Origin: an uncultured Opitutales bacterium
GTDB lineage: Bacteria; Verrucomicrobiota; Verrucomicrobiia; Opitutales; Seribacteraceae
Direction of reading: 5' to 3'
NCBI GenBank assembly: GCA_905478775.1
Contig: CAJQKB010000038.1
Coordinates: 1-43,535 of the forward strand
Length of the DNA stretch: 43,535 nt
This document shows positions 7,101-10,239 of this stretch, in pieces; within the stretch, counting starts at the first letter, position 1; each line of letters starts with the position of its first letter. The notes beneath the pieces were generated by a model that was given only the letters and a program-made list of their open reading frames with translations, had not been told where the DNA came from and ran no database searches. Made by a program: the position numbers and the translations under genes.

Positions 7101-7333
7101 GATTACTCCCCATTCTTTTTGAACGTAGCCTTCAAGCTCAATTCTTAAAACCGATGGCAATTGCGATCGGGTTTGGCGTGTTATTTGCCACATTTATCAC
7201 CCTCATTATGGTGCCCTGTTTATATCTAATCTTAGAGGACATCTTACGGACCCTCAAAAGACCGCTCAAGTGGTTTGGTATATCGCAAGATACCCAACCC
7301 GATGCAATTATGCGAACTGAAGATTCTGCTTAA
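4154..7333 (+). CDS. RND-family efflux pump, inner-membrane transporter (AcrB/HAE type)
   Basis: Proton-driven resistance-nodulation-division transporter of 1059 residues, the usual family size. Twelve transmembrane segments are expected: one at the N-terminus, a cluster at about 335-480, one near 525 and a second cluster near 870-1030. The TM4 proton-relay pair is present as GILVDDAIVVGESV (Asp394, Asp395). The N-terminal LFPDFDLDIVTVSVIYPGAA is typical. TM10 carries GVVINDSLVLVHYVN, as in a divergent AcrB-like branch, in place of the Lys940 of E. coli AcrB. Two large periplasmic loops carry the porter and docking domains. It is the last gene of the tetR operon, and its stop overlaps the convergent ArsR-methyltransferase stop by 4 bp. 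Substrate class not predictable. Confidence 0.95.
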   Translation: MIAWFAKNGVAANLLAGIILLAGIISIRGLKMELFPDFDLDIVTVSVIYPGAAPLEVEDGVCKQIEEKIWDLVGIKEMTSFARENTGVISIQVEKGKSAKVLADEIKVRVDAINNFPEEAEKPIVEVMTAKRRVLALAIHGQSDIQSIRRLAEKTQDDLTNIAGITQVEISGIRNPEIGIELSEQAMREHGLSFDSVSQALKRNSVDIPGGVARTTAGETLLRTTGKAREGRQFEQIEIVSSTNGSSVQLQDIAWVKDGFEDKVLYTTFKGQPAVTLRIFRVGKQSPLDISEKVSDYVEKQKLLLPEGISMTIWQDSSYYLQGRLDMMIRNAQHGLILVFLVLSFFLRPSLAFFVALGLPISFMGAFATMGVIGASINLVSLFAFIVVLGILVDDAIVVGESVYTLGKKGLSPVDASIKGTQLVAIPVTFAILTSVVAFVPLLFLPGWLGKLMKDIPLVVIPALLFSLVESKFILPYHLTFCRFNRGGKNWFSRIQESIADGLERFIEKVYSPFLFRCLRLRWPVVAGFLGILIITFALIIGGHVKSVRGVPPVPSDYISVKLTMQDGVPAATTEHSIKLVENARIEVIQYLKSVGEPNPFRYDMITMGAQPFSGGPKSSSNIVSGSNIGEVSVELIKSEDRTRSAPQISALWRERIGPLPGVKQIYFGDVAAGGSKTALDIEISGQNLETMKKAAHQLKEHFKKYQGLFDISDSYSGGKRELKLKLNSAGRALGLTESDLGRQVRQAYYGEEIQRLQRDREELKVMLRYPLQDRKSLSALESLRIRTPQGIEVPLEEIAQISYGQGYPTIKRSDRARIINVQSSADKLIADIPSIERDLDQSFLPSIRKDFPSLRFSFVGERKEQNESDSSLAQSGWIALFIIYALLAIPFRSYFQPLLVMSVIPFGLIGAVLGHLLFSIPLSQLSMFGIVALTGVVINDSLVLVHYVNQKSKNSTLLEAAKSAGMARFRPILLTSLTTFVGLLPILFERSLQAQFLKPMAIAIGFGVLFATFITLIMVPCLYLILEDILRTLKRPLKWFGISQDTQPDAIMRTEDSA

Positions 7334-8265
7334 ATACCCTTTTCGCCTGTAGCAAGCAGGGTCTCAAAAAATGGTTCGGTATTTTCCTTCGCAACAATTT
7401 CAACTTTAGCCTTTTGAAATCCTGACTCTTTGATTAAAGAATAAAGTTCGTTTTCAGCGAAGCCCAACCATCGATCGCTGTATAATTGTCGGGCTTTTTC
7501 AAATTGATGCTGCTTCAAATCAATTACAATTAATTGACCACCGGGTTTTAAAATCCTAAACGCCTCTTGCAGTGCTACATTTGGACGTTCTGCATGATGT
7601 AATGATTGACTCATTAAGGCTAAATCAACGCTATTATCTTGAAGGGGAACTTTCTCTAAATCACCGAGTTTGTAATTCAAGTTGGACAGTCCATTTTTCT
7701 TTGCCAGTTCTAGACCGAGTCTCACCATGCTTTTTGAGCGATCAATACAATACACTTTTTGTGCTCTCTCGGCTAATAATTGAGAGATCATTCCTTCGCC
7801 AGCACCCAAGTCAGCAATAATAATTTTAGGAACTAAACGAAGTAGGAAATGTCCGATCGCATCCCACGATCGTCCCGGTACATAATTTTTTCCTAATCGC
7901 CCGGCAACTTCATCAAAATATTGTTCGCTTGCCCGCATTCTTCTTTCAATGATTCGTTGCAATGCAGATTGATCCGTATTCCAAAATTCTTCATCTGAAT
8001 CTACTTCTAAGGCGATTCTCACAAGTTCAAATTGTTTCGAACCTCCCAGAATTAAAGTATAGAAAGTTTTCTTTCCCTCCTTTCGGTCACTTACCATCTC
8101 ATACCTTCTGAGTAACGAAAGGTGACTGGAAATACGAGATTGTCCCATTTCTAAGATTTCTTGCAATTCGGCAACAGACAGTTCTTCCTGCCCGAGTAGT
8201 CGTAACATACGCAGACGGGTGCTATCAGACAGTACCTGTAGTACCTCGGTGACCTTCATTGTCAT
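7330..8265 (-). CDS. ArsR-type winged-helix regulator fused to class I SAM methyltransferase
   Basis: A 311-residue fusion. Residues 1-75 form an ArsR-like winged helix (LSDSTRLRMLRLLGQEELSV, then MGQSRISSHLSLLRRYEMV). The C-terminal two thirds are a Rossmann methyltransferase with motif I DLGAGEG at residues 152-158, the acidic strand-2 residue in YCIDRSKSMV, and LKPGGQLIVIDL. The ArsR helices lack the Cys-rich metal site of SmtB/ArsR sensors, so it is not expected to sense metal. Fusions like this are known in bacteria beside methionine-cycle genes such as metF or ahcY; none is here. Probably a SAM/SAH-responsive regulator (inference). Substrate and targets unknown. The upstream region has no Shine-Dalgarno. 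Confidence 0.88.
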   Translation of the reverse strand: MTMKVTEVLQVLSDSTRLRMLRLLGQEELSVAELQEILEMGQSRISSHLSLLRRYEMVSDRKEGKKTFYTLILGGSKQFELVRIALEVDSDEEFWNTDQSALQRIIERRMRASEQYFDEVAGRLGKNYVPGRSWDAIGHFLLRLVPKIIIADLGAGEGMISQLLAERAQKVYCIDRSKSMVRLGLELAKKNGLSNLNYKLGDLEKVPLQDNSVDLALMSQSLHHAERPNVALQEAFRILKPGGQLIVIDLKQHQFEKARQLYSDRWLGFAENELYSLIKESGFQKAKVEIVAKENTEPFFETLLATGEKGI

Positions 8266-8355: not shown

Positions 8356-10239
8356 CTACTTCTTATCCAACCAACGAGATAATCCCTTGACCTTCCAAGT
8401 TTGGATATTTCCTGCTACATCAGTTTCGACAATATCACTAATTTTCTTCCCAAGTAACATTTGCCCTAAGGGAGTTAAATAAGAGAGGACATTGTTCTCA
8501 GGATCACTATCCCAAGCACCTAAAACCGTGTAAGTCTGTGACTTCGAATCAGATTGATCTTCCAATTCAACGATCGAGCCAATTCCAATTGAATCAGTGG
8601 GAGCATCCGCAAAATCAGTGGGCTTTGCGCGCATGATATCGGCTTGTAATTCCGATTGTCTGGCAAGAAGAAATTTTTGTTCGTCCTTCGCCATGTGGTA
8701 TTCTGCGTTCTCACGCAAATCACCGTGTTCCCGTGCCGCTTCGATCGCCAAGGAATTTTCAGGGATTTTGACTTTCGTTAATTCATCAAGATCGCCCAAC
8801 TTTTGATCATAGCTTGGTTGAGAGACAATTAACGAATCATCCGTCACGGTAGCACGATTGGATGAATCTGAATTCGCACTGCCATCAATGAGACTTTGGA
8901 TCTCAGGAAACATTTTAATAAAACGGGCCAGTAACGAACGTTTACTTAAATCTTCAAACCCAGGATTTAATAAGAGGGCTTGGGCTAAATCCTGTGCATT
9001 TTCAGCACTTCCCTTGCACAAGATGTCAGGTAATAATTCCCGATCATCTGACAAAATCTCAGCAAGTGGAATTCTTCGAGTCGTTGCATTTTGCAAAGAC
9101 TCATAGTCAATAGCGGAAAACACAGCAGTGAGGAGTTTAGGATTAATTAGTCCTTTCAGTATATCTTTAAATTTTACCAGTTCACGAAATTTTAACATCC
9201 ATAATAGAACAGGTGCCTTTAAAGTCTGTTCATCTAGCCAGTTTGATAAGGATTTGATTAGAAGCTTCGTTTCGTCACGATCAATAAGAAAATGAGCACA
9301 TTCTCCGGAAAACTTAACCGAGGAATGTTGCAATAAATTTACCACGACTGCTTTCCAATTGTCTGGATAAACTCGGGTTACGAGATCGAGAAAACGGGAA
9401 TGAAATTTGGTGGGAAGCAAATTGGCAAGCCTAGGAAGGTCTGCTTCACATTCATGCAGTATGGACGCGGAAGTGGGTTCAAGCTTCTCCACATCCTCTT
9501 CAACGTCACGCGCCAAGTTATTTCTGACCCAAATACCATGTAAACGATCCGCTTCACTGAGATTGCGGGCTTCGAGAATCGCATTGGTTAAGTCCGCTAA
9601 GACTTGAGGCAAATCGGCTTGAAGGTCCTCTTTTTCAGAAGCTAAATCAAAAAGCTTTTCTGCAAGAGCAATTTTTACTTTAGATCTTTTCTCATCAAAA
9701 AAGTCTTGCAGGATTTCTTGTTCAGGCTTCACCGGTTCGTCACGCAAGACATAGGGTTCTGTCTTTTTGTTAGGAACTGCAACACGAGGGTCTTTCACCA
9801 AAAGTTTCTTCGTAGCAGTCCACCATTTCTTGCCTTTAGCTGAGCCAAACAAATAACCTAATATCCTCTCGATATCACGACTTGCGGCACAACCGTCCTC
9901 AAATTTTACTAAAATTTCAATTATTAAATTAACTGGTTCTTTTTTGGCTAGTGTATCGATTTCAGCCGGGTTTGAACGATGACGGGAGATAATGTGATCA
10001 TCCTCTAAAAATTCGATTTTACCGAGGCAAAAGACTGGATCCATCGCATGGCTTTTTCTATCATCCTCTTCGAAGTCGATTAATAACATACCACGATCCG
10101 TGTCAAAACCGGTTATTTTGCCAAGACCCCAACTTTTATGGATGCAAGAAGCACCTTCATTCATAGCCTCGAGGGCTGGGCGTGAAGATTCTAGGGAAGG
10201 ATCTTGTTCAATCAATTGATCGATTATTTCAACATTCAT
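8356..10239 (-). CDS. greA: Long GreA/GreB-type transcript cleavage factor with large N-terminal extension
   Basis: Gre factors insert a coiled coil into the RNA polymerase secondary channel and stimulate cleavage of backtracked RNA. The last ~150 residues carry the Gre domains: AREHGDLRENAEYHMAKDEQ at 502-521 holds the tip acidic residues (Asp507, Glu510), and the FKBP-like C-terminal domain ends in LTPLGQMLLGKKISD. Ordinary GreA has about 158 residues; this protein has 627. The extra ~470 N-terminal residues start with a small beta-rich Tudor/KOW-like segment (GASCIHKSWGLGKITGFDTD) and continue as mainly helical, possibly HEAT-like sequence. Chlamydiae carry a similarly long GreA of about 715 residues, so the architecture looks like a PVC-group form. 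Function of the extension unknown. Confidence 0.88.
   Translation of the reverse strand: MNVEIIDQLIEQDPSLESSRPALEAMNEGASCIHKSWGLGKITGFDTDRGMLLIDFEEDDRKSHAMDPVFCLGKIEFLEDDHIISRHRSNPAEIDTLAKKEPVNLIIEILVKFEDGCAASRDIERILGYLFGSAKGKKWWTATKKLLVKDPRVAVPNKKTEPYVLRDEPVKPEQEILQDFFDEKRSKVKIALAEKLFDLASEKEDLQADLPQVLADLTNAILEARNLSEADRLHGIWVRNNLARDVEEDVEKLEPTSASILHECEADLPRLANLLPTKFHSRFLDLVTRVYPDNWKAVVVNLLQHSSVKFSGECAHFLIDRDETKLLIKSLSNWLDEQTLKAPVLLWMLKFRELVKFKDILKGLINPKLLTAVFSAIDYESLQNATTRRIPLAEILSDDRELLPDILCKGSAENAQDLAQALLLNPGFEDLSKRSLLARFIKMFPEIQSLIDGSANSDSSNRATVTDDSLIVSQPSYDQKLGDLDELTKVKIPENSLAIEAAREHGDLRENAEYHMAKDEQKFLLARQSELQADIMRAKPTDFADAPTDSIGIGSIVELEDQSDSKSQTYTVLGAWDSDPENNVLSYLTPLGQMLLGKKISDIVETDVAGNIQTWKVKGLSRWLDKK

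Follow-up and report, generated by a model that had tools for sequence, protein, structure and literature searches.

A long GreA with predicted Tudor-like, winged-helix and alpha-solenoid domains ahead of its Gre module in Verrucomicrobiota

Textbooks present GreA as a small protein of two domains, the E. coli factor (1grj) having 158 residues. Two NCBIfam models describe longer forms, namely NF011309 / PRK14720 ('transcription elongation factor GreA', 906 positions), which we take to be spirochaetal, and NF004969 / PRK06330 ('transcript cleavage factor/unknown domain fusion protein', 718 positions), which is presumably chlamydial. Among the matches listed from the searched literature, a collection that leaves most subscription journals outside, no paper dealt with the long GreA, its domains or its function; the matched passages place 'GreA C-terminus' among chlamydial clusters (PMC3899948), give CT636 as greA (PMC5575166) and name TP0019 only as merged with TP0018 (PMC3265458).

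The other described systems that bear on this locus are domains that grip RNA polymerase. In passages of PMC5397179, residues H681, W684, K712 and L714 of the PcrA Tudor domain are reported as needed for polymerase binding and the barrels of Mfd and CarD as binding beta1, while a passage of PMC8318588 has the PcrA barrel binding a motif in a beta insert. The N-terminal domain (NTD) of the delta subunit sits between the beta-prime shelf and jaw according to part of PMC7749165, and the same text describes in HelD a Gre-like coiled coil in the secondary channel together with further polymerase grips. We use HelD only as a comparison of how such a protein might work.

In the window (the whole 43,535-nucleotide stretch analysed, from an uncultured Opitutales bacterium) we find a GreA of 627 residues, a reading based on the ORF list, the Pfam Gre domains and homologues. 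As the preliminary description had claimed, the frame occupies 8356..10239; it lies on the minus strand and runs uninterrupted from 10239 to 8356. The protein is about four times as long as the usual GreA, with approximately 465 extra residues of other domains N-terminal to a complete GreA. One flank of the gene holds an RND (ACR_tran) transporter and an ArsR-HTH/methyltransferase protein, and the other an MFS transporter, a CTP_transf_like protein (coaD-type in our reading), CDP-OH_P_transf, PgpA and HPr; none of these neighbours accounts for the extension. The ArsR-type HTH is fused to the SAM methyltransferase in a single frame (7330-8265, minus strand) that lies downstream of the long GreA and is read in the same direction.

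Gre module and database families

On sequence grounds the protein is a Gre-family factor, with both Pfam domains over cut-off and an acidic tip at the turn of the coiled coil. GreA_GreB_N (PF03449) matches residues 472-539 (E 1.9e-17, 63.6 bits against a cut-off of 24.5) and GreA_GreB (PF01272) matches residues 547-619 (E 3.7e-18, 65.7 bits against 26.9); N-terminal to these, no Pfam family exceeds its cut-off in the 627-residue protein. From Pfam and structure comparison, together with the AlphaFold2 model in the case of the coiled coil, we place the Gre N-terminal coiled coil at residues 468-541 (8617..8838, minus strand) and the Gre C-terminal domain at residues 546-622 (8374..8604, minus strand). 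Read from the sequence and the alignment, the cleavage tip is HGDLREN at residues 505-511 (8707..8727, minus strand). It contains Asp507 and Glu510, exactly the two residues that had been named as an intact Gre tip; both are invariant in 41/41 aligned homologues and identical on alignment to the D and E of E. coli GreA. The pattern GD[LFI]xE[NS] is present in all 41 rows of that alignment and GD[LF]xEN in 39/39 long frames from deep relatives. In structure comparison of the model, GreA folds match the Gre part at Z 16.2 and 15.6, the latter being E. coli GreA, whose fold is common to residues 468-623 (2.8 A over 150 residues).

The Gre coiled coil would enter the secondary channel of a backtracked RNA polymerase, where the Asp/Glu tip, with its residues intact, would help to cut RNA, an activity that we infer. 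It had been asked earlier whether the Gre domain of so long a protein could reach this channel at all. In the AlphaFold2 model the extension enters at a short strand (residues 470-473) close to strand 538-541, where the coiled coil has its base, and the tip is at the far end; a junction so placed suggests that the extension need not block entry.

Turning to the named families, the protein scores 124.2 bits (E 4.4e-36) against the NCBIfam greA model TIGR01462, where the cut-off is 139. NF011309 is matched by the full protein at E 4e-67 and 227 bits (cut-off 714) in one collinear match of residues 29-622 to model positions 309-902, and by the extension alone (residues 1-460) at E 3.2e-19 over residues 29-439; approximately 280 N-terminal model positions have no counterpart in the long GreA. 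For NF004969 the corresponding values are E 1e-45 and 156.3 bits (cut-off 697), with residues 23-606 matching model positions 134-702, the extension alone matching at E 4.9e-18 over residues 23-358, and about 110 N-terminal model positions lacking a counterpart. All three NCBIfam cut-offs are missed, and we therefore file the protein as a Gre factor by Pfam and its tip and regard it as a relative, not a member, of the NCBIfam families. Both long models are matched by 41/41 aligned homologues (E 1e-5 or better). Furthermore, the extension without Gre matches both in 4/4 of the proteins that were tried (E 6e-17 to 4e-26); in the most distant of them the match spans just the first ~180 residues. 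Because the extension alone matches these two models, the long form is one that is already catalogued by name, in one case as an 'unknown domain fusion'.

Predicted architecture of the extension

An AlphaFold2 model of the full protein, built with 41 alignment rows, has a mean pLDDT of 88.9 and a pTM of 0.56, so that the placement of the domains is unsure; residues 1-180 modelled alone give 93.6 and 0.82. The predicted order of domains, all on the minus strand, is as follows: two short N-terminal helices at residues 1-24 (10168..10239; DSSP of the models), a Tudor-like barrel at residues 25-80 (10000..10167; model of residues 1-180, fold searches, conservation and weak Pfam matches), a winged-helix domain at residues 81-170 (9730..9999; fold search, conservation and charge), an alpha-solenoid at residues 171-453 (8881..9729; AlphaFold2 and structure comparison) and a flexible linker at residues 454-467 (8839..8880; pLDDT below 50). 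The preliminary description had a small barrel-like segment continuing into helices. The barrel is there at about residues 25-80, preceded by the two short helices, but a winged helix comes between it and the helical solenoid. The linker is the only stretch with a pLDDT below 50, and its median identity between homologues and the window protein is 0.12. That of the solenoid is 0.20, as against 0.43 for the Gre NTD. Besides Gre rows, the structural matches listed for the solenoid are helical-repeat and other proteins, all at Z 8.6 or below, and for this reason we claim no specific relative for it. A GTG in the linker could in principle serve as an internal start yielding a short GreA; this appears unlikely, as no purine-rich ribosome-binding site is seen before the GTG in the sequence.

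Among the nearest solved folds for residues 25-78 is CarD (4kbm_B, Z 6.9, 1.6 A over 53 residues). Other Tudor matches are mycobacterial UvrD1 (Z 6.3), PcrA (5dma, Z 6.2) and UvrD (7egs, Z 6.2; 7egt, Z 6.1), and in those or related entries these CarD, PcrA and UvrD proteins are bound to polymerase or to UvrB. Spindlin and other eukaryotic, histone-reader Tudors rank in the same Z range as the bacterial ones, and Foldseek gave no match under E 0.01 for either the Tudor or the winged helix. At the sequence level, the Pfam families met by most of the 41 homologous Tudors are DUF3553 (19/41), PcrA_UvrD_tudor (8/41, best E 0.025) and CarD_TRCF_RID (4/41, best E 0.024), all weak, the best Pfam E among these Tudors being 0.00096. 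For the Tudor of the window protein itself Pfam gives nothing at E up to 10, and among PDB sequences the Tudor profile likewise finds no relative at that limit. The earlier claim of a Tudor-like segment is thus borne out at the fold level on a predicted model and is weak in Pfam.

Within the barrel W37, G38, G40 and F56 are invariant in 41/41 homologues and H64 is kept in 38/41. H34 and W37 stand at the spacing of PcrA H681 and W684, the W being present in 41/41 and the H in 26/41, with D or N at position 34 in 15/41. The barrel has in common with the PcrA/UvrD Tudor, CarD and the Mfd interaction domain the fold, the H-x-x-W spacing as seen in PcrA and the weak Pfam matches of some homologues; unlike them, it is not carried on a helicase or on CarD and is without clear sequence homology. 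With regard to possible targets, the TGE helicase-interaction motif of PcrA's partner does not occur in the 987 residues inspected of the genome's 1423-residue RpoB frame. PcrA_UvrD_tudor has no match over cut-off anywhere in the genome, and CarD/RID has one, in a 1133-residue frame that we take to be Mfd from its length.

For residues 81-180 the top-scoring structure is that of the polymerase delta subunit (RpoE NTD) in 9a6y_A, which is an integrative model (Z 8.9, 3.5 A over 90 residues), with a second delta match in 8x6g_E at Z 8.3. Forkhead domains, from Z 8.2 down to 6.1, come within 1 Z unit of delta and are nearly as good, and the likeness to delta is without sequence support. True HARE-HTH identity is not supported: hhalign against 43 rows gives a probability of 0.82%, where the control Tudor and Gre alignments give 0.23% and 0.16% against the same profile, and Pfam has no HARE-HTH match among the 41 winged-helix members. 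Searched against PDB sequences, the winged-helix profile has only matches with E 0.45 or worse. Separately, one contig of another sampled genome (G124, C1) contains at least 13 frames of 130 residues, dispersed along the chromosome, whose HARE-HTH scores are weak and nearly equal; they may belong to a mobile element.

Distribution and descent of long and short Gre proteins

It had been asked whether the extension has homologues in Verrucomicrobiota, and single-sequence and profile searches find them phylum-wide. The extension (residues 1-470) is matched in 37/42 genomes of its family and, by single-sequence search, in 129/194 genomes of the phylum, in open frames of 618-1781 residues. Among the other 65 genomes the extension profile finds 29; 60 of the 65 have a Gre domain in a frame of 486-889 residues, one has only a 145-residue frame and four have no Gre match. 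A long Gre frame is therefore present in 189/194 sampled genomes (129 + 60). That Gre and extension share one frame was confirmed directly for the 41 rows of the alignment; in the 54 genomes that have two or more PF01272 matches it was checked as a Gre N-terminal match in a frame of at least 618 residues. The extension profile also matches 38/39 long frames taken from deep relatives (36 genomes, three of them sampled twice), with E values no higher than 0.0031, the exception (L193) having E 0.38. In many of these frames the match is confined to the solenoid just before Gre, and most of the deepest relatives are matched in the C-terminal part of the solenoid. In the more distant members (L134-L201) Gre mostly starts 70-180 residues later in the stop-to-stop frame; these may extend further at the N-terminus, like the NCBIfam long models.

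By these matches the extension is real, conserved coding sequence; nearly the whole phylum has the long form as its standard GreA, and the gene is an ordinary one there. A chance or frameshifted fusion was ruled out because the same frame recurs in many genomes. The sampled long GreA proteins are related to one another as their genomes are, in keeping with vertical descent: in the 41-row tree of the full protein the order, class and phylum sets of rows are each separated from the rest by a single branch (support 100/100, 89/85 and 95/90), and the total is two changes where shuffling gives a mean of 19.3. Close relatives in sequence records amount to 42 loci, assigned to Opitutales, Opitutia or Verrucomicrobia. 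None of the 59 matching plasmid records covers 80% of the query, the 20 listed being short Gre matches with 22-26% cover, and in all 27 loci on virus contigs the match lies within residues 468-627. One sampled genome (G031) carries two copies of the extension, on contigs C253 and C46, that are 97% and 96% identical to that of the window, perhaps a strain mixture in the assembly.

A second, short GreA had been suggested as something to look for in the genome. None was found: the long GreA is the only PF01272 match at E up to 10 in an assembly that is 95% complete. By hand count over the phylum, 136/194 genomes have one PF01272 match, 54/194 more than one and 4/194 none. Of the extra matches inspected (20 of ~95, plus the short-only case), 0/21 have a GDxxEN tip; most of these 21 short proteins (L196, L202-L221) look Rnk-like in our reading, with a short N-terminal part. 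The Gre N-terminal domain (PF03449) has a single match in 41 of the 54 multi-match genomes, always in the long frame, and more than one in 13. These further matches comprise: (i) in 10 genomes of one family of the order Opitutales, a Gre that is short and divergent and keeps its GDLREN tip intact (L254-L263) in addition to the long GreA; (ii) in two genomes (G177 and G148), a short tip-bearing Gre frame (L264, L265) directly behind the long one, resembling a tandem duplication of the Gre end; (iii) in G192, a second frame of 474 residues with a solenoid end and Gre; and (iv) three weak Gre N-terminal matches with no tip. A short tip-bearing Gre is thus found in 12/194 genomes, always beside a long one, which rules out the statement that the phylum has no stand-alone GreA.

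Possible roles of the extension

Our working model, which is drawn from the predicted folds and which we favor by a slight lean, is that the long GreA, the only Gre-family protein of its bacterium, may be a cleavage factor with a built-in second grip on the polymerase. The Tudor and winged helix would dock on that polymerase at a further surface, the likeliest being either the part of the beta subunit to which the Tudors of CarD, Mfd and UvrD bind or the beta-prime shelf/jaw used by delta, and the alpha-solenoid would span both sites as a brace, making for a tethered cleavage factor that stays long on the enzyme. Consistent with a second grip, H34 and W37 are at the PcrA spacing and W37, G38, G40 and F56 do not vary. 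Counting against it are the weak fold resemblances, the ties with forkhead and eukaryotic Tudor domains, the failed homology to HARE-HTH and the absence of the PcrA target motif from the inspected part of RpoB. HelD differs in carrying NTPase domains, none of which Pfam finds in the long GreA.

It is also conceivable, if rather unlikely, that the extension is a nucleic-acid anchor, in which the winged helix and perhaps the Tudor would hold duplex DNA near the polymerase or the nucleoid and so bring GreA to arrested complexes. The forkhead proteins among the winged-helix matches (Z 6.1-8.2), many of them DNA-bound, point in this direction, as does the charge of the domain: over the 41 homologues the median net charge is +4 for the winged helix, -1 for the Tudor and -7 for the solenoid. 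Position 137 is K in 39/41, and a K or R stands at position 144 in 41/41, at 145 in 37/41 and at 159 in 39/41. A passage of PMC7585439 further indicates that the UvrD Tudor domain also binds DNA. Against an anchor, the winged helix is a common fold for which Z 8 lies near the background of such structure searches, and the most conserved positions of the domain include W140 and P156 (each 40/41) besides K137. Moreover, no Pfam match to a DNA-binding family is convincing, the best being AlkZ-like in 3/41 members at E 0.0052.

We consider it distinctly unlikely that the extension has no second docking site and is an appendage that regulates or stabilises the protein, for instance by restraining the Gre module. 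Such an appendage would fit the faster divergence of the extension, the median identity being 0.20 in the solenoid and 0.43 in the Gre NTD. It would also fit the 12 genomes that retain a short tip-bearing Gre, from which it follows that Gre function can work without the extension. The near-invariance of Tudor and winged-helix residues across the phylum speaks against it, as does the retention of the long form in 189/194 genomes, including those 12. Very unlikely is a coupling of the polymerase to the ribosome or to DNA repair, with the Tudor acting like the KOW domain of NusG toward S10 or like the PcrA barrel toward UvrB; NusG (1npp_B) and T. thermophilus UvrD-UvrB (7egt_B) are among the Foldseek rows, but nothing speaks specifically for coupling and NusG is one among many Tudors.

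Returning to the second polymerase grip, a broader version of it would be that one protein carries, in this phylum and conceivably in Chlamydiae and Spirochaetes too, jobs that are split elsewhere among GreA, a delta-type subunit and a grip of the CarD/Mfd/UvrD type. The long GreA would then be a multi-site factor for polymerase rescue or remodelling, similar to HelD without the ATPase, that replaces stand-alone GreA in most of the phylum. We regard this version as decidedly doubtful.

Nearly the whole phylum has a GreA enlarged by three domains, two of which have folds that grip polymerase in other proteins, and in most sampled genomes this little-studied form of a textbook protein is the only tip-bearing Gre. 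If the second contact is real, these bacteria would differ from others in the residence of the cleavage factor and in the rescue of polymerase; judging from the NCBIfam matches, with the models assigned as we assume, the same would probably hold in chlamydiae and spirochaetes.
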